Assembly: GCF_000473895.1 (NCBI RefSeq)
Contig: NZ_ASSJ01000049.1
Coordinates: 124,001-188,000 of the forward strand
Length of the DNA stretch: 64,000 bases
DNA from: Rubidibacter lacunae KORDI 51-2
GTDB taxonomy: Bacteria > Cyanobacteriota > Cyanobacteriia > Cyanobacteriales > Rubidibacteraceae
Direction of reading: 5' to 3'
In this document: piece by piece, positions 5,696 through 40,121 of the stretch
Layout of the letters: every line of letters begins with the position of its first letter
How positions within the stretch are numbered: the first letter of the stretch is position 1
Notes under the pieces: generated by a model
What the model saw: only the letters and a program-made list of their open reading frames with translations
Told to the model about the DNA's origin: nothing
The model's database searches: none
Program-made: the position numbers and the translations under genes

Positions 5696-8600
5696 TCAAA
5701 GCACCCGCACTCGCGAACCGTCGGGAGACTTGGTGACTTCGATCTGAGCGGGCAGGCGATCGGCGAGCTCGCGAACATGGGTGATCAATCCAACAATGCG
5801 GTGCGATCGCCGTAGGGTTTCTAGGGCTTGGATCGCGCTTTCGAGGGTTTCCGGATCGAGCGTACCGAAGCCTTCATCCAAGAAGAGGCTGCCGACTTCT
5901 GCAGAGCCAGCCAGCAGTTCCGACAGTGCGAGTCCGACCGAGAGGGATGCCACGAACGTTTCCCCACCCGAGAGGGTCTGCACCGGTCGCGTTTCGCCGC
6001 CATTCCAGCCATCTTCGACGACGTATTTGTCGCCGTCGAGGGCGAGCGTGTAACGTCGCGTGAGATCTTGCAGGTAACGGCTGCCTTGTAAGGCCAGGTC
6101 TTGCTCGAAAGCCTCGAGAATATAGCCCTGGAATTGGTTTGACTGGAGTTGCTGCGCGATCGCGTGCAAGGCATCGACTTGTTTTTGCAGTTCGTCGTGT
6201 TTGGCTTGAAGTTTCGCGACGTCTCGGGCCAGACGCTGCTGCTCGCTCAGCCAGACGGTAATGCGCTCGCGTTCGGACTGCAGCTCGTCGCCGCGATCGC
6301 GTGCGTTATCTAGCGCTTGCTCCAACGCTACGATCGCCTCGGCATCGGCAGCGCGACCGCCGATTTCTGTTTGCAAGTTCGCCACGCGCACGGTCAGCTC
6401 GAGGTGCTGTTTTTCGTAGGTTTGTTTCTGCTCGTGCCAGGCTTGTTGCTGTTGTGGCGTCGCGCGGGCGGTCAAAAACTCCGCCTCGGTGCAGCCGAGA
6501 TCCTGACAAGCAACAGTCCAGGAGCGATCGCGCTCTTGCTGAAGCGTGTGGGCGGTTGTCAGTTCCCGCGCGGCACTCTCGGCCGCAGTTTCGGCACGAA
6601 TGAGCTCGGCGGCGCCGGTGTCGCGGGCGCTGGTGGCGGTTTGGACGGCACGATCGCAATCGTCTCGCTGCTGCTTCAGGATGCGGGCGAGGTCGGCATA
6701 GGGCTGCTTGCCGAGTTCGGTGTAGAGGCGTTTGAGGGCTTCTGTCAGGTCGGTTTCGGCGTTTTGGAGCTGCGTCTGGCGGCGATCGCTGTCGTCAACC
6801 GCGCGGTCGCGTTCCCGGTTGGCAGCGGCGCACGCCTGTTCGGCGGCCTGCAGCTGGGAGCGCGTGCGAATGCACCGGTCGCGAATGGCGTCGAGTTGCG
6901 CTCGTGCTTCCTGGTAGCGACGATCGCGGTCTTCAAGGGTTTGCAATTCTGTTTGCAAGGCTGCCGAATCCCATTCGCAATGGCCGAGCAAGTCGCGCAA
7001 TTGCCGAGAACGTTCGCTTAAATCGCCCTCGCGATCGGCAAGCAGCTGGCGGGCATTGTCGGCTTGCTGTTGCTGGCGCGCGCCTTCCAGCCGCGCGTCA
7101 TTGAAGTCCTGGCGGGCGCGCTCGGACTCGCCGCATGCCTCCGCGTGCTGGGCTTCCCAGAGCTCGACCTTAGAGTCGGGCAAATCCGGCACGGCCGTTG
7201 TCCCCGGATACGGACTGTTACAGACCGGACAAGTTTCACCGTCGTGCAGCCGCTCGCGCAACATAGCAATCGCATTGTCGTCGCGGGCCTGCTGGAGTCG
7301 GTTGGTAACGGCTTGCAAGACGGTTTCGGCTTCTGCAAGCGCTGCACTGGCCTGGCGCTCGGCAGCTGCCGTTGCAGAGGTGGCTGACGTCGCAGTTTCG
7401 AGGTTCATAGCAGCTTGGTGACGGCGAGCGTGCGCCCGTTCCCAAGGTTCGAGCAAAGGCAACACTTGCCGTAACACCTGCAGGCGATCGCCGGTGGGTG
7501 CGGAATTTTCAACAACTGCCTTTGCCTGACTCTCTTCGGTTTCAGCCTGCTGCAGCCCGGTATGTGCAACCGCAAGTTCGGATGCCGCGCGTTCGTAAGC
7601 GTCTTGACGCTGGCGCTGCAAGTTGCGGGCACGCTCGACCTCCTCAGCACAGCGAGCGCGAGTCGTTTCAAAACTTGCAGCAGCTTGCAACACCGCCTCG
7701 CGCCCTTGTAGTTCGCGCTCGCGATCGATTGCTGCGGTAAAAGCAACTTCGCTGCGTTCGGCGATCGCGCGGGCTGCAACGAAGGCAGCATCTTCAGATT
7801 CACTCCGTTCCGTTGCTGCCTGCAGGCGCGATCGCGCGTCTTCCACGAGCCGCCAATCTCCTTCAAGCTGGGCGGCAATTTGCGCCTGCGCCAGTTTGGC
7901 AGTTATGTCTTGAATAACGTTTTCTCGAGCGAGCAAATCGGTCAATTCCGCCCGCGCTCGGGTTAGTTGTTGCTGCCGTTCGAGCAAACGCTCGGTGTCG
8001 TTGAGTTCCTGCTGCAGCTGCTCGATGTGCCCTGTGGTAGTGGCAATCCGGGAGCAAACCTCTCGTTTTTGAAGTTCTGCTGCAGCAATCTCTTCTGTTG
8101 TCGGCAAAGAGCGCTCGGCAAGCTGTGTGGCGATCGCGTTGAGTTCGCCCGCTGCCAGCTTTTCGCGCTCGACGGCTTTTTGACGCATCAGCTCGAAGAC
8201 TTGCAGCTCGGGAATAAGCTGGCGCAGGATCTCGCGGCGATGGCGCGGTGTGCCTTTCAAGAAGCGATCGAACTCGCCTTGCGGTAACAGAATGACGCGC
8301 GTGAAAGTGTCGTAGTCGATGCCCAGAATTGAGGCGATCGCGCCATCTACATCCCGCTGCTGCTCTTTTTCGCGCTCCCACTTGGCACCATCGAAGCGAT
8401 CCAGCACGATCGCATTCGTCGCGGTTTTGCGCGAGAAGTCGTACGTCCGCACCGCACGATACGTTTCCCCGCGCGACGTGAAATGCAGCTCGACCTTGAG
8501 TTGCTTTGCACCTTGCGTGACCAAATCGGCAGGGTTGAGTTTGCGTGCGACTTTCCCATATAGGGCAAACGTAATTGCATCGAGCAGCGATGTTTTGCCG

Positions 8601-8710
8601 GCACCCGTTGGACCTGTAATCACGAACAGGTTGTCTAACGCATCGAAGTCGATTTCCTGTCGCGTGCGAAAGCTCGTGAATCCTTCCAAAATCAACTTAA
8701 TCGGGCGCAC
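5696..8710 (-). CDS. sbcC: SbcC/Rad50-type SMC ATPase, exonuclease subunit C
   Basis: 1004 residues. GTG 8710 is chosen because an AGGAGG sits seven bases upstream; a longer frame to 8830 is antisense-like and lacks a ribosome site. Features in order: Walker A GPTGAGKTS (residues 33-41), a long Glu/Gln/Ala-rich coiled coil, a zinc hook CPVC (about 494-497), the returning coiled coil, the ABC signature LSGGETF and Walker B LFLDEGFGTLD near the C-terminus. With SbcD it forms the bacterial Mre11-Rad50 complex that opens hairpins and trims blocked DNA ends. The start overlaps the sbcD stop by 14 bases, so the two are translationally linked, and the genes upstream encode HerA and NurA. Confidence 0.95.
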   Translation of the reverse strand: MRPIKLILEGFTSFRTRQEIDFDALDNLFVITGPTGAGKTSLLDAITFALYGKVARKLNPADLVTQGAKQLKVELHFTSRGETYRAVRTYDFSRKTATNAIVLDRFDGAKWEREKEQQRDVDGAIASILGIDYDTFTRVILLPQGEFDRFLKGTPRHRREILRQLIPELQVFELMRQKAVEREKLAAGELNAIATQLAERSLPTTEEIAAAELQKREVCSRIATTTGHIEQLQQELNDTERLLERQQQLTRARAELTDLLARENVIQDITAKLAQAQIAAQLEGDWRLVEDARSRLQAATERSESEDAAFVAARAIAERSEVAFTAAIDRERELQGREAVLQAAASFETTRARCAEEVERARNLQRQRQDAYERAASELAVAHTGLQQAETEESQAKAVVENSAPTGDRLQVLRQVLPLLEPWERAHARRHQAAMNLETATSATSATAAAERQASAALAEAETVLQAVTNRLQQARDDNAIAMLRERLHDGETCPVCNSPYPGTTAVPDLPDSKVELWEAQHAEACGESERARQDFNDARLEGARQQQQADNARQLLADREGDLSERSRQLRDLLGHCEWDSAALQTELQTLEDRDRRYQEARAQLDAIRDRCIRTRSQLQAAEQACAAANRERDRAVDDSDRRQTQLQNAETDLTEALKRLYTELGKQPYADLARILKQQRDDCDRAVQTATSARDTGAAELIRAETAAESAARELTTAHTLQQERDRSWTVACQDLGCTEAEFLTARATPQQQQAWHEQKQTYEKQHLELTVRVANLQTEIGGRAADAEAIVALEQALDNARDRGDELQSERERITVWLSEQQRLARDVAKLQAKHDELQKQVDALHAIAQQLQSNQFQGYILEAFEQDLALQGSRYLQDLTRRYTLALDGDKYVVEDGWNGGETRPVQTLSGGETFVASLSVGLALSELLAGSAEVGSLFLDEGFGTLDPETLESAIQALETLRRSHRIVGLITHVRELADRLPAQIEVTKSPDGSRVRVL

Positions 8711-9884
8711 GCCGTTCCTCCTGCACTTCCCGATACAAGTCTTCGAAGATCGCCAGCACCGCCGGGGATGGCTCCGTCCCCCCTTTGCGATCGCGGTAGT
8801 AACTCCGGAAGCGATCGCGTGCCCCTTCAACCGATCGCAACTGCTGCGGTTCTACACGCTGTTGGGCTTTATCCGACCGCCGATAGCGGGCTTCCACGTG
8901 GAGCGTTTGCGGGCAAACTTGCTTGACGCGTTCGGCGAGATGCGATCGGGGCTCGTCCAACTCGACAATAACTTTCAACCAGCCCGGATGGTTGCGATGT
9001 GCTTCGAGTTCGCTATCGAGATCGTCCGCCTTACAGCGAATTTCCCGCAGCGGTTTCGGGCAGGGCAGCGTTACAAATTCAACCTTGGCCAGTTTGCCCG
9101 GCTCGACCGTCACCAGGTTAAACCCTTTGTCTTCATTGCATTCGCCAAAATCGACTTGGATGAGCGATCCGGAATAATAAGTCGGGGCGACAGCGTTGGC
9201 GATCTTTTGCTGCTTGTGGATGTGCCCAAGCGCAATGTATTGAGCGTCAGGCAGCGTTTGTTCCGAGAGCGAATAGGCTCCCGTTGTCTCGAATTCGCGC
9301 TCGGAATGAGATAACTGGGCCCCTGCGATCGCCAGATGCGCCATCAAGATGTTGACGCTACCCGCGCGAAACTCCTTAGCCAACAAACCTAACAATTTGC
9401 TGACGCGATCGCGATAATTCTGCAAGCGCTCGCCACCGGTTTTCTCCCACAAATACTCGTCCGATAGGAAGCGCCGCTCGGAGGCAAATGGCATGGCTGC
9501 CACGCAAAGATTCCCGCTCGCGGTCTCAACGCGAACGATACCCCCATCGTCCGGTCGGCGTGGTTTTCCCAATGCGGTGACATTTGCCAACGACAGAATA
9601 TGCGCGACGCTATCGATGCGAAAGGCCGAGTCGTGGTTGCCCGCGATCGCGACGGCCGGAATGTTTGCGTGCTGCAGGCTGGCGAAGAACTGGTACGCTA
9701 CGCGTTCGGCCTCGGTGGACGGATTGGCGTGATCGAAAATGTCACCCGCCACCAGGACGGCATCGACTTCGTGACCGATCGCGTATGCGGTTAGTGCCTG
9801 CAGTTGCAACTCGATTTCTGGCGTACGATCGCGTCCTTTCAACTTGCGACCGAGATGCCAATCTGCCGTGTGGATAATTCGCAT
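8697..9884 (-). CDS. sbcD: SbcD/Mre11-type nuclease, exonuclease subunit D
   Basis: 395 residues from ATG 9884 (a TTG four codons upstream is less likely). The metallophosphoesterase motifs are all present: HTADWHLG (residues 4-11), VAGDIFDHANPS, AGNHDSAF and LGHIHKQQ. These bind the two Mn2+ ions of the Mre11 active site. The protein is the nuclease partner of SbcC, encoded immediately downstream and overlapping. herA ends 71 bases upstream on the same strand. Confidence 0.95.
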   Translation of the reverse strand: MRIIHTADWHLGRKLKGRDRTPEIELQLQALTAYAIGHEVDAVLVAGDIFDHANPSTEAERVAYQFFASLQHANIPAVAIAGNHDSAFRIDSVAHILSLANVTALGKPRRPDDGGIVRVETASGNLCVAAMPFASERRFLSDEYLWEKTGGERLQNYRDRVSKLLGLLAKEFRAGSVNILMAHLAIAGAQLSHSEREFETTGAYSLSEQTLPDAQYIALGHIHKQQKIANAVAPTYYSGSLIQVDFGECNEDKGFNLVTVEPGKLAKVEFVTLPCPKPLREIRCKADDLDSELEAHRNHPGWLKVIVELDEPRSHLAERVKQVCPQTLHVEARYRRSDKAQQRVEPQQLRSVEGARDRFRSYYRDRKGGTEPSPAVLAIFEDLYREVQEERRAPD

Positions 9885-9955
9885 CGCGCGTCTCAAAACA
9901 GGTCGAATAATAATCGCTTGCTGTGGTTCGAATGCTGTGGTTCGAAGCCGATTTC

Positions 9956-11707
9956 TCAGAATAAGTCGAAGTCGGCAGCGATCGCCGCTTCCTCGGTTTG
10001 AGAATAGTCCACTTCCGAGCGTCGCGTTGCATAGGGTGGAAACGGAAAACTAACCATCAGCGGAGCGGGAACTTCCGGTTGTTGCACGAACATCGTTCCC
10101 GATTTCACAAACAAGGCACGTTGCTTGCACGACGCGCTCAAGAAATTATATTCCGGACGTTCGGCTTCTGCGGCATCCAGACGCCCGACGACGCGAATCG
10201 CAGCTTGGCCGACCACGCGCCGTTCCACTTCCGACGCCGTCTGCTGGGCCCCGATCAAAATAATGCCCAGCGATCGCCCGCGTTCGGCAATTTCCACGAG
10301 CAAATCCGCAATTGGGCTGCGTCCGTCGCGCGGTGCGTATTTGTTGAGTTCGTCGAGCACGATGAAGACTGTTGGGTATTGACCGCGTTTTTCCTTCTCC
10401 AAAAACAGCTTCCGCAAAGTGACGCCGACGACAAACATTTGCGCTTTTGCCCCGAGGCGGTTGATGTCGGCTACAGTCAGCAGGCGATCTTGGGCGATCG
10501 GCTCGAGGCGATATTGCTCGACTTCGCGTTCTGTCAGATCGCCGCGAATCAAATGCGCGACTTCCTCGCGGACGCCCCACAAGCGCCGGATCAGCGCCAT
10601 CGCCGTACCGGGTTGGTTGCGCACGAGCCAACGTTGATCGGGTTCTTCGCCAATCAGCTTGTCTTCAAGAAACTGAATCAGATCGGTGAAAGTGCGGATT
10701 TGCAGCTTGCGATCTTCACCGTAGGGCTCGTCAACGTGAAGATAGCTTTGCTTCGGATTCTGCTTGTCGTTGTCTACAGCCAGTCGTGCTAGGCGATCCT
10801 CAACATTGGCAACAAGATAAACCAAATTGCCGCGTTCGAGGTCTTCTCCGACAAATAGGAACCGAAACAAGCGATCGCGACACAGTTCGCGCAAACTCCA
10901 CATGTATGCCGTCACGCCTTCAGTGCGCTGGTCGATGTTCGGCACCACATCCGGCAGCAGATTTTTCTTGGCAGGCGCGCAGAATTTGACGTCGGTAAAA
11001 GGCATCGCTGGAAGCCCGAGCGTATCGAGGCGATCGCCCGGATTGTTCCCGAGCTTTGCTTCGTACTCGGGGCGTTTGAGATTGGATTTGTCGAGGAAGA
11101 ACAAATCCTCGCCTTTGACATTAAAGATCACAGCCTTTTTTGTGTTAGCGCTGCCCGAATCCGTGGTGGAATGGAAGATCGCGTGCAACAAAAACAGCGC
11201 GTAGGATGTCTTCGTCGCTACGCCTGAAATACCGGAGATATTGACGTGCGCGCCTTTCTCGCCATTGATAAACGAATAATTTAAATAAGCCGGGCTGCCA
11301 TTACGCATCAACCCCGCCGGGATACGACTGTCCATCGTATCGAAATGCAAGGCGCGCTTGAGACTGTCTTCTGCGGCTCGATAAACGGCATCTCCCGGGA
11401 GCGGTGGCAAGTATTCTTCCGGTTCCAACCGCGTGACTTGGACGTGGGCCGCGTAGGACAAACTGACCGGAAAATTGCCATCGCGGACCAGAAACGTATC
11501 CGTGTCGAACTCCGTGCCTTCGTGCAACGTTCGGACGCGATCGACGACGCCATAAAACTGCACGCTTCCGCTGCCGTCGGGTTTCCGCGTCTCGACCCGC
11601 AGCACGTCATCCAGGCGCACGACTTGCTCGTCGGCTACGGCAACCCAAAACTCTAGCGGGGTTGCTTCCTTAGTTCCCAACACGCATCCGATCGCGCGAT
11701 CTTCCAT
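9956..11707 (-). CDS. herA: HerA-type DNA translocase ATPase (DUF87)
   Basis: 583 residues from ATG 11707, eight bases after a GAGGAG. An N-terminal HAS-barrel-like beta domain (residues 1-100, ending LSYAAHVQVTRLEPEEYLPP) precedes the RecA-like core. The P-loop is the variant GISGVATKTS (about 159-168), one residue longer than the usual GxxGxGKT; Walker B is FIVLDELNK (about 448-456), followed by the IAERGRSLGI and IGAQQTASEV segments that couple ATP hydrolysis to DNA. HerA hexamers pump DNA into the NurA nuclease. The gene starts 35 bases after the stop of the NurA-like gene and is followed by sbcD, reproducing the archaeal end-resection gene set. Confidence 0.85.
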   Translation of the reverse strand: MEDRAIGCVLGTKEATPLEFWVAVADEQVVRLDDVLRVETRKPDGSGSVQFYGVVDRVRTLHEGTEFDTDTFLVRDGNFPVSLSYAAHVQVTRLEPEEYLPPLPGDAVYRAAEDSLKRALHFDTMDSRIPAGLMRNGSPAYLNYSFINGEKGAHVNISGISGVATKTSYALFLLHAIFHSTTDSGSANTKKAVIFNVKGEDLFFLDKSNLKRPEYEAKLGNNPGDRLDTLGLPAMPFTDVKFCAPAKKNLLPDVVPNIDQRTEGVTAYMWSLRELCRDRLFRFLFVGEDLERGNLVYLVANVEDRLARLAVDNDKQNPKQSYLHVDEPYGEDRKLQIRTFTDLIQFLEDKLIGEEPDQRWLVRNQPGTAMALIRRLWGVREEVAHLIRGDLTEREVEQYRLEPIAQDRLLTVADINRLGAKAQMFVVGVTLRKLFLEKEKRGQYPTVFIVLDELNKYAPRDGRSPIADLLVEIAERGRSLGIILIGAQQTASEVERRVVGQAAIRVVGRLDAAEAERPEYNFLSASCKQRALFVKSGTMFVQQPEVPAPLMVSFPFPPYATRRSEVDYSQTEEAAIAADFDLF

Positions 11708-11742
11708 CGTCCACACTCCTCTTCAACCATCTGCCGCAGCAG

Positions 11743-12750
11743 CTAAGACCGAGCGGCTAAAAACGCTTGGATGCAGCGCCGCACCAGCTTGCGATCGCCC
11801 ATCGAACGCCCCAAATGTTTCTCCAGCGCGCCGATCGGCATGAGGTTTTGCGGCGCGCGCGGGTCGCGCAACGGCTGCGAGGCATAACGCGGAATCAACT
11901 CGCAACTCCAATCGGCAATCTCGATCGCGCGCTCGCGAGCCACATTGGTTGCCAACAATTCCAGCCGCACGACCCCGTGCAACCCCCGGTAGGCGCGACC
12001 GGCAAAAACGTCACCCGAGCGCAAATACCAGCTCCAGCGTCGATTGGGCGACGTGTCGCGACCGAGTGCAAAGACAGGGGTGCGCTCGCCCGACTGCAGC
12101 TGCCACAAAATCTCCGCACGCTCGCCGGCCAGATAGGCTTTGTGCAGCGTTTTAACATAGCCGAGAATCGCCTGGGACTGCTGCATGGAGACTAAGTTAC
12201 CGTCCTGGATCGCTAATGTATCGGGCTCCCGGGCCCACCGCCCGGCTAACTCGATTTCCAACGTCCGCATCGCGTTCAAAACGAGCTTTTGCGGTCGGTC
12301 GGGGTCGTTGTGTTGGCGATCGCTCAAACGCAGGTCGTACACCACGGGGTTGTGCATTCCTGGCAAGGCAGGCAGCCGCGTTACGGGCGGTTTCTCCCCG
12401 CAAAAGGCGATCGCGCGGCGGACGATCGGGGGTTCGGGATAAACGGCGGCTCCACGGGTTCGATCGATCGCCACGGCTCCGATCGCGATCGTGGCAAAGG
12501 CCCCATAAACCGGCACGTTCCCCTGCCGTCCGACAAACGGCGCGTCAACGCGCAAGCGTCCGTCGATCAGGATAATGCGATCGGGCAACGCGGGTCGGAT
12601 TTGCGGGCAATACGGTTCCCAAGCACGCGCTTCCGCGTGGAAGTCGATCGCGTCGTTACCGGCTGCATCCGGCTCGCCCATCGCGACGGGCAAGTCGTAA
12701 TCCGCACCCCAAGGACTGAATTGGATGCTATTGGCTTGCCAGAAGTTCAT
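11743..12750 (-). CDS. nurA: NurA-like 5'-3' nuclease, partner of HerA
   Basis: 335 residues from ATG 12750; the frame continues upstream to 12822 with a weaker start. NurA hallmarks are the acidic motif IILIDGRLRVD (about residue 80), a conserved central region, and ILGYVKTLHKAYL (about residue 200), which matches the G-(Y/V)-VK motif of the family. NurA is an RNase H-like nuclease that resects DNA ends after HerA. The call rests on these motifs together with the position directly ahead of herA; sequence similarity within this family is low, so the motif reading alone would be moderate. It is the first gene of the nurA-herA-sbcD-sbcC run. Confidence 0.7.
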   Translation of the reverse strand: MNFWQANSIQFSPWGADYDLPVAMGEPDAAGNDAIDFHAEARAWEPYCPQIRPALPDRIILIDGRLRVDAPFVGRQGNVPVYGAFATIAIGAVAIDRTRGAAVYPEPPIVRRAIAFCGEKPPVTRLPALPGMHNPVVYDLRLSDRQHNDPDRPQKLVLNAMRTLEIELAGRWAREPDTLAIQDGNLVSMQQSQAILGYVKTLHKAYLAGERAEILWQLQSGERTPVFALGRDTSPNRRWSWYLRSGDVFAGRAYRGLHGVVRLELLATNVARERAIEIADWSCELIPRYASQPLRDPRAPQNLMPIGALEKHLGRSMGDRKLVRRCIQAFLAARS

Positions 12751-12866
12751 GCGTACTAAAATATCCGATGGACCTGGATCTGGCAAGACCGCCTCCCACG
12801 CGATTGCCTTTCCCCAACCCAATTTGCAAGCTCAATTCTCCAACAGCGATCGCGCGTTCGCACCGG

Positions 12867-13523
12867 CTATGCTGCCTTACCGGCGCGTTGTTTTAGATAA
12901 GCGAAGACGGATTTATCGCCGATATCCGATGGAATTGGCTGCACGCATTTACGCAGAGCAAAAATTAAAAAAAGTACGCTCCAGGCTACGAGCAATCCGC
13001 GCTCAGCAGCAAGCGGCAACAGCCCGCTCACGTGTCCGAGTAGCAGTAACGGGACCAGCGGTGTCAAAAACTTGGTCTCGAAGCGATCGAAACAGAAGGC
13101 TTCTTTGAAGAAGATTCCAGTTAGAGCGGCAAACGCAAACCCGAGTCCGATTAGTGCGATCGGCCGTTCGTAAGCAGCCTGCAAAAGCGGTAAATCGCTG
13201 CGCCAGCTCACCGCGATCGCTGCGATCGTCCCGATTGCCCAAAACACTTGCAGCAAGCGGTGCAGCGGAACTAAGTAGATATGAATGGTCAGCAAGCTGA
13301 CCCCCAATCCGAGTGAGAACAGTGCATAAAGCACCGTCAGCCACGCCAACACGGACGGGGTCGCACCGAGATAGAGCACGGCAGACGTCGCGATCGCGAA
13401 ACTGGCTGCCGCGATCGTCAATCCGGCACGGTAAACGACAACCCCGCGGCGATCGGTTGCCGTAATGGTAAATTCGCCGAACTGACCCTGATAGATTGCG
13501 GTTTCTGCCTTCGATGCGTTCAC
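12867..13523 (-). CDS. DUF2301-type integral membrane protein
   Basis: 218 residues when started at GTG 13523, which follows a strong GGGAGGA ribosome site; a longer frame to 13580 overlaps the upstream gene. After a short soluble N-terminus (YQGQFGEFTITATDRRG) there are about seven hydrophobic helices with small loops. The pattern, including the FFKEAFCF and loop-rich centre, is that of the DUF2301 membrane proteins common in cyanobacteria. The function is unknown. The stop of the YyaL-like gene lies 54 bases upstream, so the two may be co-transcribed. Confidence 0.7.
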   Translation of the reverse strand: MNASKAETAIYQGQFGEFTITATDRRGVVVYRAGLTIAAASFAIATSAVLYLGATPSVLAWLTVLYALFSLGLGVSLLTIHIYLVPLHRLLQVFWAIGTIAAIAVSWRSDLPLLQAAYERPIALIGLGFAFAALTGIFFKEAFCFDRFETKFLTPLVPLLLLGHVSGLLPLAAERGLLVAWSVLFLIFALRKCVQPIPSDIGDKSVFAYLKQRAGKAA

Positions 13524-13576
13524 GGTCGTTCCTCCCAATCGATCTGCATGTAAGGTTGCTTCAACTACGGGTTGCT

Positions 13577-15658
13577 TCAACTACGGGCTTGAGTTTGCTG
13601 GATTTGAGCGCGCAGTTGGTTGCGATCGCGCGCGGGTTTCAAGCAGCTCAACCCGCGACAGACAAGTCCGACGACGTCCTCAGGAATCTCTGTATCGAGG
13701 CGATAGACGCAGGTCGGCGCGTAATGCGGCATGAGTTCTTGCAATTGATTGGAGCGCGATCGCACGAGCGTGGCATTGCGGAACCAGTCGAGTGCGGAGA
13801 ACAGGCTCGGGCACATGCCCGCAGCTTTTTGCATGATGGCACCGAAGGCGGTTAACAGGTGCTCGGCGCGATCGAAATACGTTAGGTCTTCTGTCAGCAA
13901 ATACAGTCGCACCAAATTCGCCGCAGCAATTCCGTTGGCAGCTGGTGTTGCGTTGTCGGTGTAACTCCGCTCGCGCAACAACAGCTCGCTGCTGGCGTCG
14001 TCGGCTGCATTAAAGTAACCCCCGGGTTCAGAACTCCACAGGTGCGCGTCGAATTCGGACTGGACGCGCACGGCTTGTTGCAGCCACTGAGTTTGCTCCG
14101 GATAACAGGCGTGGAGGTCGAGCAATGCTTTTACAAACAGCGCGTAATCCTCGGATTGGGCGGGAACGGCTGCTCGCCCGTCATAGTTCAGGCGGTGGAA
14201 GCGATCGCCAACCCACTGATTCTCCAACAAAAATGTTGCAGCCCGCACAGCACAATTCCCATAAGTTTCCTCGCCAAAGACAGCATATGCGCGTGCCAAA
14301 CCCGAGATAGCAAGGCTATTCCACGCCACGATCGCCTTCGTATCGGTGACGGGTGGAATGCGTCCGGGCCAAGCCTCCGTTTTGGCGTCCCGATTGTCGC
14401 GAGCGGGCGGGAAAATCGCTAGGTCGGCGGCCGGCGTCCCGTAACGAGCGGTGAAGAGTTTCTGCAAGGCCGCTTCGGCCGCTGCAGACAGTTCGGCGGT
14501 TTTCCCCATCTCGCCGAGCAGCTCGTCAGCCGGACGGCGCTGGAGGACGTTGCGTCCCTCGAAGTTGCCTGTCGGCGATACCGTAAACTCGGTTTCCAGT
14601 GCATGCAGTTCCTCAGCCGCAAGCAGCTTCTGAAGGTCGGTATAGCTCCAAACGTAAAACGCACCTTCCTCGGGTTCGGTATCGTCGGTGCCGCTGAAAC
14701 TGTCGGCATCTTGGGCAGCATAAAAATAGCCTTCCGGTGCCGTCATCTCGCGCTGCAGCCACTGCACCGTCCCCGCGATCGCCTGCCGGAACGACGGCTC
14801 CCGGATGCCCGCGCTCCACAAATTTGCCAGGAATTCGAGGATTTGCCCGTTGTCGTAGAGCATTTTCTCGAAGTGCGGCACCGTCCAAGTGGCATCGACC
14901 GTGTAACGATGGAAGCCGCCACCCGCATGGTCGTTAATTCCGCCGAGTGCTAGATCGAGACCGCGTTGGGTGCAAACTTTTAACGCATCGTAAGGCGAGT
15001 CATCGGATTGGCGGCGCGTCGCGCGCAAAGCCGCTTCGGCATAGGGCATCATCGGAAAACTCGGCGCGCCATGGGAACTGGCAATACCAACTGCAGCGTT
15101 TAACCCATCCGATAGCAAGGTTTCCGGTAGAGGCTGGTCGATCTGTGGGAGGACGACGGATTGCTGCAGCATGCCCATCATCTCGGTCTTCATTTCCTGG
15201 AGCTTACTTTTTTTTCGATCGTAGAACACACGTACAGATTGCAACACGTCCAGAAATGGCGGTTGTCCGAAGCGCGCCACAATCGGGAAGTAAGTGCCCC
15301 CGTAGAACGGGACGCGATCGCCGGGGGTCAGGAAGATGTTGAGCGGCCAGCCGCCGCGTCCAGTCATGAGCTGCAGCGCTTGCATGTAGATGCTGTCGAG
15401 GTCGGGGCGCTCCTCGCGATCGATTTTCACTGGCACGAAGTGCGCGTTGAGATACTCTGCGATCGCAGCATTAGAAAAGGCCTCGCCTTCCATGACCGTG
15501 CACCAGTGGCAGCTCGAGTAACCCACAGATAGGAAAATCGGCTTATCCTCAGCTGCAGCTTTCTCGAGAGCTTCATCGCACCAAGGCCACCAATCGACGG
15601 GGTTGTCGGCGTGCTTGCGAAGGTAAAGGCTTTGAGCAGAGGCAAGGCGATTGGGCAT
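13577..15658 (-). CDS. YyaL/SSP411-like protein, thioredoxin-fold plus six-hairpin domain (DUF255)
   Basis: 693 residues, the usual length of the family. The N-terminal DUF255 domain carries NPVDWWPW and a thioredoxin-like SSCHWCTVME (Cys-His-Trp-Cys near residue 50). KIDREERPDLD and GRGGWPLNIFLTP follow, and the C-terminal two thirds is helical with DGRAAVPAQSEDYA, as in (alpha/alpha)6-barrel sugar-active enzymes. The fold resembles N-acylglucosamine epimerases. Reported roles differ between organisms (mammalian spermatogenesis protein SPATA20, bacterial YyaL), and no reaction is established. No signal peptide is present, so it is cytoplasmic. Confidence 0.85.
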   Translation of the reverse strand: MPNRLASAQSLYLRKHADNPVDWWPWCDEALEKAAAEDKPIFLSVGYSSCHWCTVMEGEAFSNAAIAEYLNAHFVPVKIDREERPDLDSIYMQALQLMTGRGGWPLNIFLTPGDRVPFYGGTYFPIVARFGQPPFLDVLQSVRVFYDRKKSKLQEMKTEMMGMLQQSVVLPQIDQPLPETLLSDGLNAAVGIASSHGAPSFPMMPYAEAALRATRRQSDDSPYDALKVCTQRGLDLALGGINDHAGGGFHRYTVDATWTVPHFEKMLYDNGQILEFLANLWSAGIREPSFRQAIAGTVQWLQREMTAPEGYFYAAQDADSFSGTDDTEPEEGAFYVWSYTDLQKLLAAEELHALETEFTVSPTGNFEGRNVLQRRPADELLGEMGKTAELSAAAEAALQKLFTARYGTPAADLAIFPPARDNRDAKTEAWPGRIPPVTDTKAIVAWNSLAISGLARAYAVFGEETYGNCAVRAATFLLENQWVGDRFHRLNYDGRAAVPAQSEDYALFVKALLDLHACYPEQTQWLQQAVRVQSEFDAHLWSSEPGGYFNAADDASSELLLRERSYTDNATPAANGIAAANLVRLYLLTEDLTYFDRAEHLLTAFGAIMQKAAGMCPSLFSALDWFRNATLVRSRSNQLQELMPHYAPTCVYRLDTEIPEDVVGLVCRGLSCLKPARDRNQLRAQIQQTQARS

Positions 15659-39320: not shown

Positions 39321-40121
39321 CTACAGCGCCACTTCATCGACCCGGGCGAGCGCCTCGCGCCAGTCCGACGCCAGCTCCGACACTGCGGGCGACTGGCGTT
39401 GGCAGCGGCTGGCGAAGGCGCAGGTGGCACAAAGGCTGCTCGACTCCGGCACCTGCGGAAACAATGTCCCGTGGCTGTCGTAGGCTTGCTGCCATTGCGT
39501 CAAATTGGTTAACAGCTCGGTTAATTCCCGCTGGGTGGTGGCGTGCTGCTCGCGGTTGTAGGCGATCGCGAACTGTTGCGGCGTTGCTGGTGGCTTGACA
39601 AACCAATAAACAAACTCGATTTGCTCCGGAGCATATTCGCAGGTTTCCGCCAACACGAACAGGTATAGCCGTGTTTGCCAACTTTCAACGAGCTGTTGCC
39701 GCCGACTGCTCGGCGGTTGCAAGTAAGTTTTCCAGTCCAGTATTCGCGCGCGCTCGCGGCTGGCAAGCAATAAGTCAAACACGACCGTCAGTAAATATCC
39801 GGCAAACTCCAGCGTTCGCAAGTGCTCTGCTGCCCGCCACGTTCCCGACTGGGTCGACAGCAGCTCCGAGGCGGACTCGGTCAAGGCTGCAATTGCTGCC
39901 CCGAACTCGTCGTCCTCTGGTAGCACCGACGCGATCGGCAAGCCCAACTCGCGCTGTTGCATCAGCAGGTGAAACCGTTTGCCCCAGGCCAGGCGATCGC
40001 TCTGAACTAAGTTTGCCGGGGCTTGCAAACGATCGAGGTAGGCATGTTGGAACTTGCGCGGGCAAGCTGCCAGCAAGTTCAAATGACCTTGCGACAAACG
40101 CGGGAGCACTACTTCAGACAC
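39321..40121 (-). CDS. PD-(D/E)XK nuclease-family protein (RecB/Cas4-like)
   Basis: 266 residues. Motifs: LSQGHLNLLAACPRKFQHAYL at the N-terminus (first Cys, residue 20), LAWGKRFHLLMQQ (the conserved His), ILDWKTYLQ (the D-x-K catalytic pair, about residues 128-130), WQTRLYLFVLAE (the QxxxY helix) and CATCAFASRCQ near the C-terminus. The one-plus-three Cys arrangement is that of an iron-sulfur cluster as in AddB and Cas4. No cas genes are nearby, so a general DNA-repair role is more likely than adaptation. The gene is complete. Confidence 0.8.
   Translation of the reverse strand: MSEVVLPRLSQGHLNLLAACPRKFQHAYLDRLQAPANLVQSDRLAWGKRFHLLMQQRELGLPIASVLPEDDEFGAAIAALTESASELLSTQSGTWRAAEHLRTLEFAGYLLTVVFDLLLASRERARILDWKTYLQPPSSRRQQLVESWQTRLYLFVLAETCEYAPEQIEFVYWFVKPPATPQQFAIAYNREQHATTQRELTELLTNLTQWQQAYDSHGTLFPQVPESSSLCATCAFASRCQRQSPAVSELASDWREALARVDEVAL

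Follow-up and report, generated by a model that had tools for sequence, protein, structure and literature searches.

In archaea, the HerA-NurA-Mre11-Rad50 operon is expressed as one transcript and is induced by ultraviolet (UV) light. Whether HerA-NurA and Mre11-Rad50 act together in repair or in destroying foreign DNA is a matter of debate (PMC12977600, PMC9960219). In Deinococcus radiodurans, NurA-HerA trims 5' tails in an ATP-dependent manner in vitro (PMC8708640, PMC9960219), and for HerA-NurA of T. kodakarensis the authors doubt a resection role and suggest an antiviral one, other HerA proteins being known to act in defence (PMC12977600). NurA and HerA of cyanobacteria are already in print (PMC8708640). 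Here we describe a row of nurA, herA, sbcD and sbcC genes in a 64,000-nucleotide stretch of the cyanobacterium Rubidibacter lacunae KORDI 51-2 (henceforth, the window), which forms a second set beside the dispersed canonical nurA, herA, sbcC and sbcD of the same genome. The row is a real and conserved cassette that is built of parts known from Deinococcus and archaea, and it appears to be a mobile duplicate of the whole machine; in the open-licence PMC literature, we found no publication on a second or plasmid-borne set of such kind. We consider it probable that the four genes work as one accessory cassette for the processing of DNA ends.

The second nurA-herA-sbcD-sbcC set

Four minus-strand genes lie in a row at window positions 5696-12750, in the order nurA-herA-sbcD-sbcC, each with an open frame. 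The gaps between nurA and herA and between herA and sbcD are 35 and 71 bases, respectively, and sbcD and sbcC overlap by 14 bases, exactly as claimed in the first-pass annotation of this DNA, whose naming of the products as NurA-like, HerA-type, SbcD and SbcC is backed by profile searches, fold matches and motifs. The genes and the two motifs discussed below are:

11743..12750, minus strand: nurA2, ATG start, 335 residues, predicted Deinococcus-type NurA nuclease
9956..11707, minus strand: herA2, ATG start after AGGAG, 583 residues, predicted Deinococcus-type HerA translocase; an alternative GTG start at 11716 would give 586 residues
11207..11233, minus strand: P-loop GISGVATKT of HerA2, found with the pattern G..G..[TS]K[ST]
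8697..9884, minus strand: sbcD2 (Mre11 homologue), ATG start, 395 residues
5696..8710, minus strand: sbcC2 (Rad50 homologue), GTG start, 1004 residues
7220..7231, minus strand: zinc hook CPVC of SbcC2, residues 494-497, found by pattern search

The canonical copies of this genome are located on contigs C81 (NurA), C36 (a DUF87 HerA), C55 (SbcC) and C52 (SbcD), whereas the cassette is on contig C49, apart from all four. The canonical families are near-universal: among 20 genomes, PF09376 NurA and a strong DUF87 protein were each detected in 19, and at least one SbcD match and at least one SbcC match in all 20 (the SbcC match in G073 is merely 5.3e-4); in G303 and G046, the sole strong SbcC is of the cassette kind. 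FastTree trees of 27 SbcC and 25 SbcD proteins place the canonical SbcC (7) and SbcD (6) copies in clades with support 1.0, with the cassette copies falling outside and those of Chlorohelix and Aulosira sitting nearest the canonical clade.

The window NurA alone has no match in Pfam, NCBIfam or PADLOC. PF09376, the family against which a check had been proposed, leaves this protein unmatched but recognizes three of six aligned relatives (best E 5.4e-4), and a profile made from nine NurA relatives (A3), searched against the PDB at E up to 10, finds two proteins, D. radiodurans NurA (7f6d_H, 2.7e-35) and a T. maritima nuclease (1zup_A, 2.7e-11). NurA homology at the profile level, named beforehand as decisive for the assignment, is thus present, and the window protein is too diverged for Pfam detection by itself. 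The same two proteins top the fold search with the AlphaFold model of NurA2 (7f6d_G, E 7.9e-21, 29% identity), in which the mean predicted local distance difference test score (pLDDT) is 66.7 and residues 1-52 fall under 50. Residues D63, E165, D183 and D296 are among those invariant across nine aligned relatives. The aspartate in the VVDG motif of D. radiodurans NurA aligns with D63 and would be the D53 that was mutated in PMC9960219 if the crystallized chain carries a 20-residue tag.

The window HerA, likewise, has no Pfam match and matches archaeal HerA only weakly (NCBIfam, E 0.028; PADLOC, 7.1e-6, the best HerA match there and a partial one). In contrast to these weak hits, a profile made from 13 HerA relatives (A4) and searched against the PDB matches D. 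radiodurans HerA (7f6d_B) over its full length (profile positions 3-563 of 569) at E 1.2e-174, the next match being at 3.8e-9. The HerA2 model, although of low confidence (pLDDT 58.5), likewise points to D. radiodurans HerA in the fold search (7wrw_B, E 2.8e-42, 50% identity); it also resembles the TdpAB structure 8wfd (E 7.8e-12), a name for which a literature search found no paper.

The P-loop GISGVATKT was correctly read in the first-pass annotation as a longer variant, being one residue longer than GxxGxGK[ST]. The corresponding pattern, G..G..[TS]K[ST], is present in all 17 HerA2 proteins checked and in all 11 rows of the HerA alignment A2, down to 27% identity. The further proposal that this P-loop marks a new subfamily of its own is dismissed because the P-loop of D. 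radiodurans HerA is identical letter for letter, and the two proteins also have the Walker B-region LDELNKYAPR in common. The lysine of the D. radiodurans P-loop is residue 175 by our count in the alignment, and in the crystal structure K175 is at the beta-phosphate and T176 at the magnesium (PMC9960219). The canonical HerA of the R. lacunae genome (L102) carries GKSGTGKS instead. The long P-loop marks a family that is already known, and NurA2 and HerA2 are of the Deinococcus type rather than the archaeal type.

SbcD2 exceeds the TIGR00619 cut-off (196 bits vs 77.65) and contains the motifs DWHLG, GDIF, GNHD and GHIH. SbcC2 matches TIGR00618 over its full length, albeit under the cut-off (295 vs 478.5 bits), with intact Walker A, zinc hook CPVC, LSGGE and Walker B LFLDE motifs. 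Among the PADLOC 2.0 models, NurA is matched by 0 families and the best match of SbcD2 is partial (PDC-S10, 1.4e-7); mad8 weakly matches HerA2 (1e-5), the other MADS genes not having been looked for. The matches of SbcC2 to LmuB (2.2e-30) and mad3 (1.6e-27) are taken as general Rad50-like similarity.

Distribution, linkage and surroundings

With a presence threshold of E < 1e-20, 12 of 386 cyanobacterial genomes have HerA2 and 10 of these 12 also have NurA2, which no other genome has (both, 10; herA2 only, 2; nurA2 only, 0; neither, 374); among 40 near genomes, nurA2 is present in two, R. lacunae itself (G000) and G031. Dropped before this count were herA matches with E 2.8e-4 to 9e-4 in G128, G028, G225, G235 and G064, as well as fragmentary nurA matches (about 1e-4) in G151; G050, with a 26% identical HerA2 relative adjoining other partners, was counted as herA2-positive. 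A HerA2 scan of genome contigs, which reached close relatives only, yielded 23 loci. Four of these are complete (uncultured cyanobacterium L016, Scytonema L019, Rivularia L021 and Mastigocoleus L026), and in the other 19, herA2 is present while nurA2 and sbcD2 are both missing from the stretch examined, some stretches being short (15 Pseudanabaena, Phormidium tenue, one Oscillatoriales metagenome-assembled genome and two uncultured cyanobacteria); in one of these, L022, sbcC2 lies one open frame further on. In G216, G303 and G366, of the Pseudanabaena group, nurA2 and herA2 are apart and sbcD2 and sbcC2 lie at other places, but none of the four is missing, and this retention despite lost linkage speaks for a joint function.

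Altogether, all four genes are adjacent at 16 loci, five of these on plasmid records, and the genome-context check of the four-gene order that had been proposed shows the row to be more than a chance arrangement:

Genomes: the window, G031, G076 (plasmid), G103, G326 (the contig of L021), G358, G053 (two loci)
Contigs: L016, L019, L026
Further plasmids: L093 (Sphaerospermopsis), L095 (Streptomyces, linear), L096 (Chlorohelix), L097 (Aulosira)
Record labelled as a plasmid but evidently a chromosome: L094 (Nonomuraea)

The order nurA-herA-sbcD-sbcC is found at 14 of the 16, with nurA placed after sbcC in Streptomyces and Nonomuraea. The profile of the NurA alignment A1 detects the Streptomyces (6e-38), Chlorohelix (2.2e-18) and Aulosira (1.3e-11) proteins, and the Nonomuraea NurA was identified via its similarity to that of Streptomyces; G073, where nurA2-herA2 is at a contig end, was left out of the 16. 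The four proteins have correlated distances (r 0.73-0.92 across 12 cyanobacterial sets, with no control for common descent). Genome G053 has two diverged complete copies of the cassette (L073 8042-15162 and L074 4877-11897), as well as one more SbcC, one more SbcD and a NurA of the canonical kind.

By tblastn, HerA2 matches six of 72,556 plasmid records, five of which carry the cassette; the sixth, Nonomuraea gerenzanensis 'plasmid I' (L094, NZ_LT559118.1), is 11.85 Mb long and evidently a chromosome. In phage records, HerA2 matches were limited to two of 50,697, both partial.

The neighbours of the window copy are ordinary: one gene is of the amylase type, and two others encode a DUF2301 membrane protein and a protein with a thioredoxin domain. 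The thioredoxin-domain (DUF255) and DUF2301 genes (window 12867-15658) are on the same strand upstream of nurA, at a distance of 116 bases, and overlap each other by 4 bases. The DUF2301 gene is present in eight of nine family genomes, R. lacunae included, and its neighbours differ in the remaining seven, so that no empty insertion site can be named from the flanks. A promoter scan of the region found four sites against 2.6 expected, just one of them before nurA2, and a terminator scan at the locus returned nothing above chance:

12758..12786, minus strand: possible promoter before nurA2, TTGCCA-17-TATTTT, 9/12 match, not above chance

The HerA2-NurA2 pair also occurs without SbcCD. Marinitoga camini virus 1 carries it, and a scan of viral contigs with the HerA alignment A2 gave 88 pattern matches, including four relatives (the scan with A1 gave 175 pattern matches and 0 relatives); NurA in these four contigs was recognized with a wider profile, at 1e-23 to 2.4e-17. 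In one of them (L120, 3139-10787), NurA2 and HerA2 are encoded in a row between a type IIG restriction enzyme and a type II methylase, an arrangement that matches the description of the Thermus tdtA transfer operon (PMC5365140). A different cassette recurs in the other three viral contigs and in genome G050, combining NurA2-like and HerA2-like proteins with an HSP90-like ATPase and a further protein that weakly matches radical-SAM:

L121 6735-13142, L122 6535-12868, L123 5766-12535 and L078 4004-10373 (G050): NurA2/HerA2/HSP90-like cassette

The assignments are by Pfam for L121 and by eye for L122, L123 and G050, the G050 NurA having E 0.64 with the narrow profile. The L121 NurA, ATPase and radical-SAM-like proteins have no PADLOC match, and this cassette is possibly an undescribed conflict system.

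Possible roles of the cassette

Judging from its predicted proteins, the cassette is most likely an ATP-driven machine for DNA-end processing. If the cassette works like the D. radiodurans complex and its archaeal counterpart, SbcC2-SbcD2 would bind a DNA end and open or clean it, a HerA2 hexamer would load on the duplex and pump it with ATP into a NurA2 dimer, and the NurA2 dimer would cut the strands on arrival. The purpose would be a degradation or resection of ends that the host or the replicon needs under some conditions only, which would explain why the cassette is patchy and mobile and the canonical set near-universal.

Several observations weigh against this reading. The acidic residues by which D. 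radiodurans HerA binds NurA are D78, E80 and D81 (PMC9960219), and their equivalents in the window HerA, according to the profile alignment, are D, F and L; with two of the three changed, the HerA2-NurA2 interface may differ. The D. radiodurans pair is encoded away from its Mre11/Rad50 homologues (PMC8708640), implying that SbcCD is not always the partner. In G046, herA2 occurs with no nurA2 match. The co-occurrence of the two genes has a Fisher's P of 4e-18, but this test ignores the kinship of the genomes and was made after the weak rows were dropped. Finally, the guanine-cytosine content of the four genes is ordinary (0.556-0.621, compared to 0.568 for the window, standard deviation per kb 0.035), and hence the window copy is without sign of recent arrival; a recent island, considered as a reading of the locus, is rejected on the same values.

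Among the alternatives to an accessory cassette, the repair of chromosomal breaks, with the cassette resecting ends for RecA and substituting for missing RecBCD/AddAB, is less probable. The archaeal set is linked to repair, the D. radiodurans pair trims 5' tails (PMC8708640, PMC9960219), and chromosomal copies of the cassette exist, for example, in G358 and Scytonema. The R. lacunae genome itself gives no match to the RecC profile (PF04257), and its PDDEXK_1 matches (PF12705, RecB/AddAB-type) are limited to frames of 267 and 232 residues; RecD was not searched. The longer of these frames is a stand-alone RecB-type nuclease domain in the window (39399-40100; G000:C49:163399-164100); no other PDDEXK_1 match of the genome is strong. 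The first-pass annotation had proposed to check whether recBCD/addAB are missing; in this genome, neither RecC nor a large PDDEXK_1 frame was found, but across 14 genomes, searched with PF12705 and PF04257 and not with RecD or separate AddA/AddB models, such absence is not associated with the module, and we reject replacement of RecBCD/AddAB on this ground. Large PDDEXK_1 frames occur despite the module in G358 (880 residues), G326 (711) and G053 (1226, with RecC in addition), and G015 has neither the module nor RecBCD/AddAB. Furthermore, because the canonical set is also present, the cassette need not be what resects the cell's DNA ends, and the distribution of the cassette is patchy (herA2 in 12 of 386 genomes) and often plasmid-borne. 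D. radiodurans cells that have lost the pair are reported to withstand high UV and mitomycin about ten-fold better (PMC9960219), a poor fit with a pure repair role.

Defence, under which the cassette would destroy the DNA of incoming phages or plasmids by attacking it at the ends, is a tentative proposal that we regard as doubtful. It is favoured by the carriage on plasmids, by the antiviral suggestion for the T. kodakarensis pair and the defensive action of other HerA proteins (PMC12977600), and by the defence-type genes that neighbour several copies: Wadjet JetA/JetB are near the Streptomyces copy, NACHT occurs in both Sphaerospermopsis and G053 (in the latter along with NERD-UvrD), Chlorohelix has a TIR neighbour, and the Nostoc plasmid carries type I restriction genes. 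However, the scanned neighbours were chosen by eye, with no control loci, and such company is therefore only suggestive of a role; at the window copy and at several chromosomal copies, the neighbours are ordinary. In Chlorohelix (L096 5700-15014) and Aulosira (L097 5615-14927), genes for a sigma-like protein, a small unknown protein and an M78 (ImmA/IrrE) peptidase directly precede nurA on the same strand, the Chlorohelix peptidase being CapP-like (E 5.8e-20) and the Aulosira sigma match slightly under the Pfam cut-off; the HerA proteins of these two loci, from a member of the Chloroflexota and a cyanobacterium, respectively, are only 27-29% identical to the window HerA. It is conceivable, if doubtful in our estimate, that the cassette is an unrecognized mobile system of defence or inter-replicon conflict, separate from the repair set, and that the M78 peptidase and the sigma-like factor switch on at least these two plasmid copies. 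Against defence, PADLOC has no model for the NurA and weak ones for the HerA, and there is no indication how self would be told from non-self.

The third alternative, that HerA2-NurA2 pumps DNA out in a conjugation-like manner, as TdtA with its NurA-like partner in Thermus, is improbable: one cassette-bearing plasmid is typed conjugative, the G103 and Aulosira copies have relaxase genes (Mob_Pre) nearby, the G326 copy has ParA/ParB in its vicinity, and the viral contig L120 has the tdtA-operon layout, but the Thermus operon as described in PMC5365140 is without SbcCD, TdtA is likened here by description rather than by sequence, and no transfer gene was recognized beside the window copy.

Whichever role applies to the accessory cassette, a cell that has both a dispersed, near-universal set and a clustered, patchy and often plasmid-borne one, each complete, would allow the roles in repair and destruction to be told apart through deletion of either set alone.

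Comparison with known systems

The SIR2-HerA and DUF4297-HerA defence complexes, similarly to the cassette, include a HerA ring with an effector, and are structural matches at E of about 1e-14 to 1e-11; they differ in having other effectors, 11-15% identity and no SbcCD. The tdtA operon of Thermus thermophilus resembles the cassette as a mobile pair of HerA-like and NurA-like genes and, in the description of PMC5365140, has a type IIG restriction enzyme and a methylase in place of SbcCD, neither of which was recognized in the window operon or among the scanned neighbours. A bacterial precedent in print is the hepA-sbcD-sbcC region of Oceanithermus profundus, in which a herA homologue is followed by sbcD and sbcC (PMC5448004); the likeness is by description only, and the passage concerned is silent on a nurA upstream, a second set and plasmids.

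The archaeal mre11-rad50-herA-nurA operon contains the same four protein kinds in one row, so that the likeness perceived in the first-pass annotation stands for the gene set and its clustering. It does not extend to NurA and HerA: the window HerA scores 12.9 bits against a cut-off of 970 for NF040819, the window NurA is unmatched by PF09376, and both are reached through Deinococcus profile matches, on which grounds an archaeal-type set is dismissed.

The nearest relative of the pair is D. radiodurans NurA-HerA (PDB 7F6D, 7WRW, 7WRX). Apart from the separate location of its Mre11/Rad50 homologues and the two differing residues in the acidic NurA-binding patch of HerA, it resembles the window pair in both members, with HerA alike over the full length, at about 50% identity to the window model and with the same P-loop, and NurA alike in the profile search (E 2.7e-35) and, at 29% identity, in the fold match.

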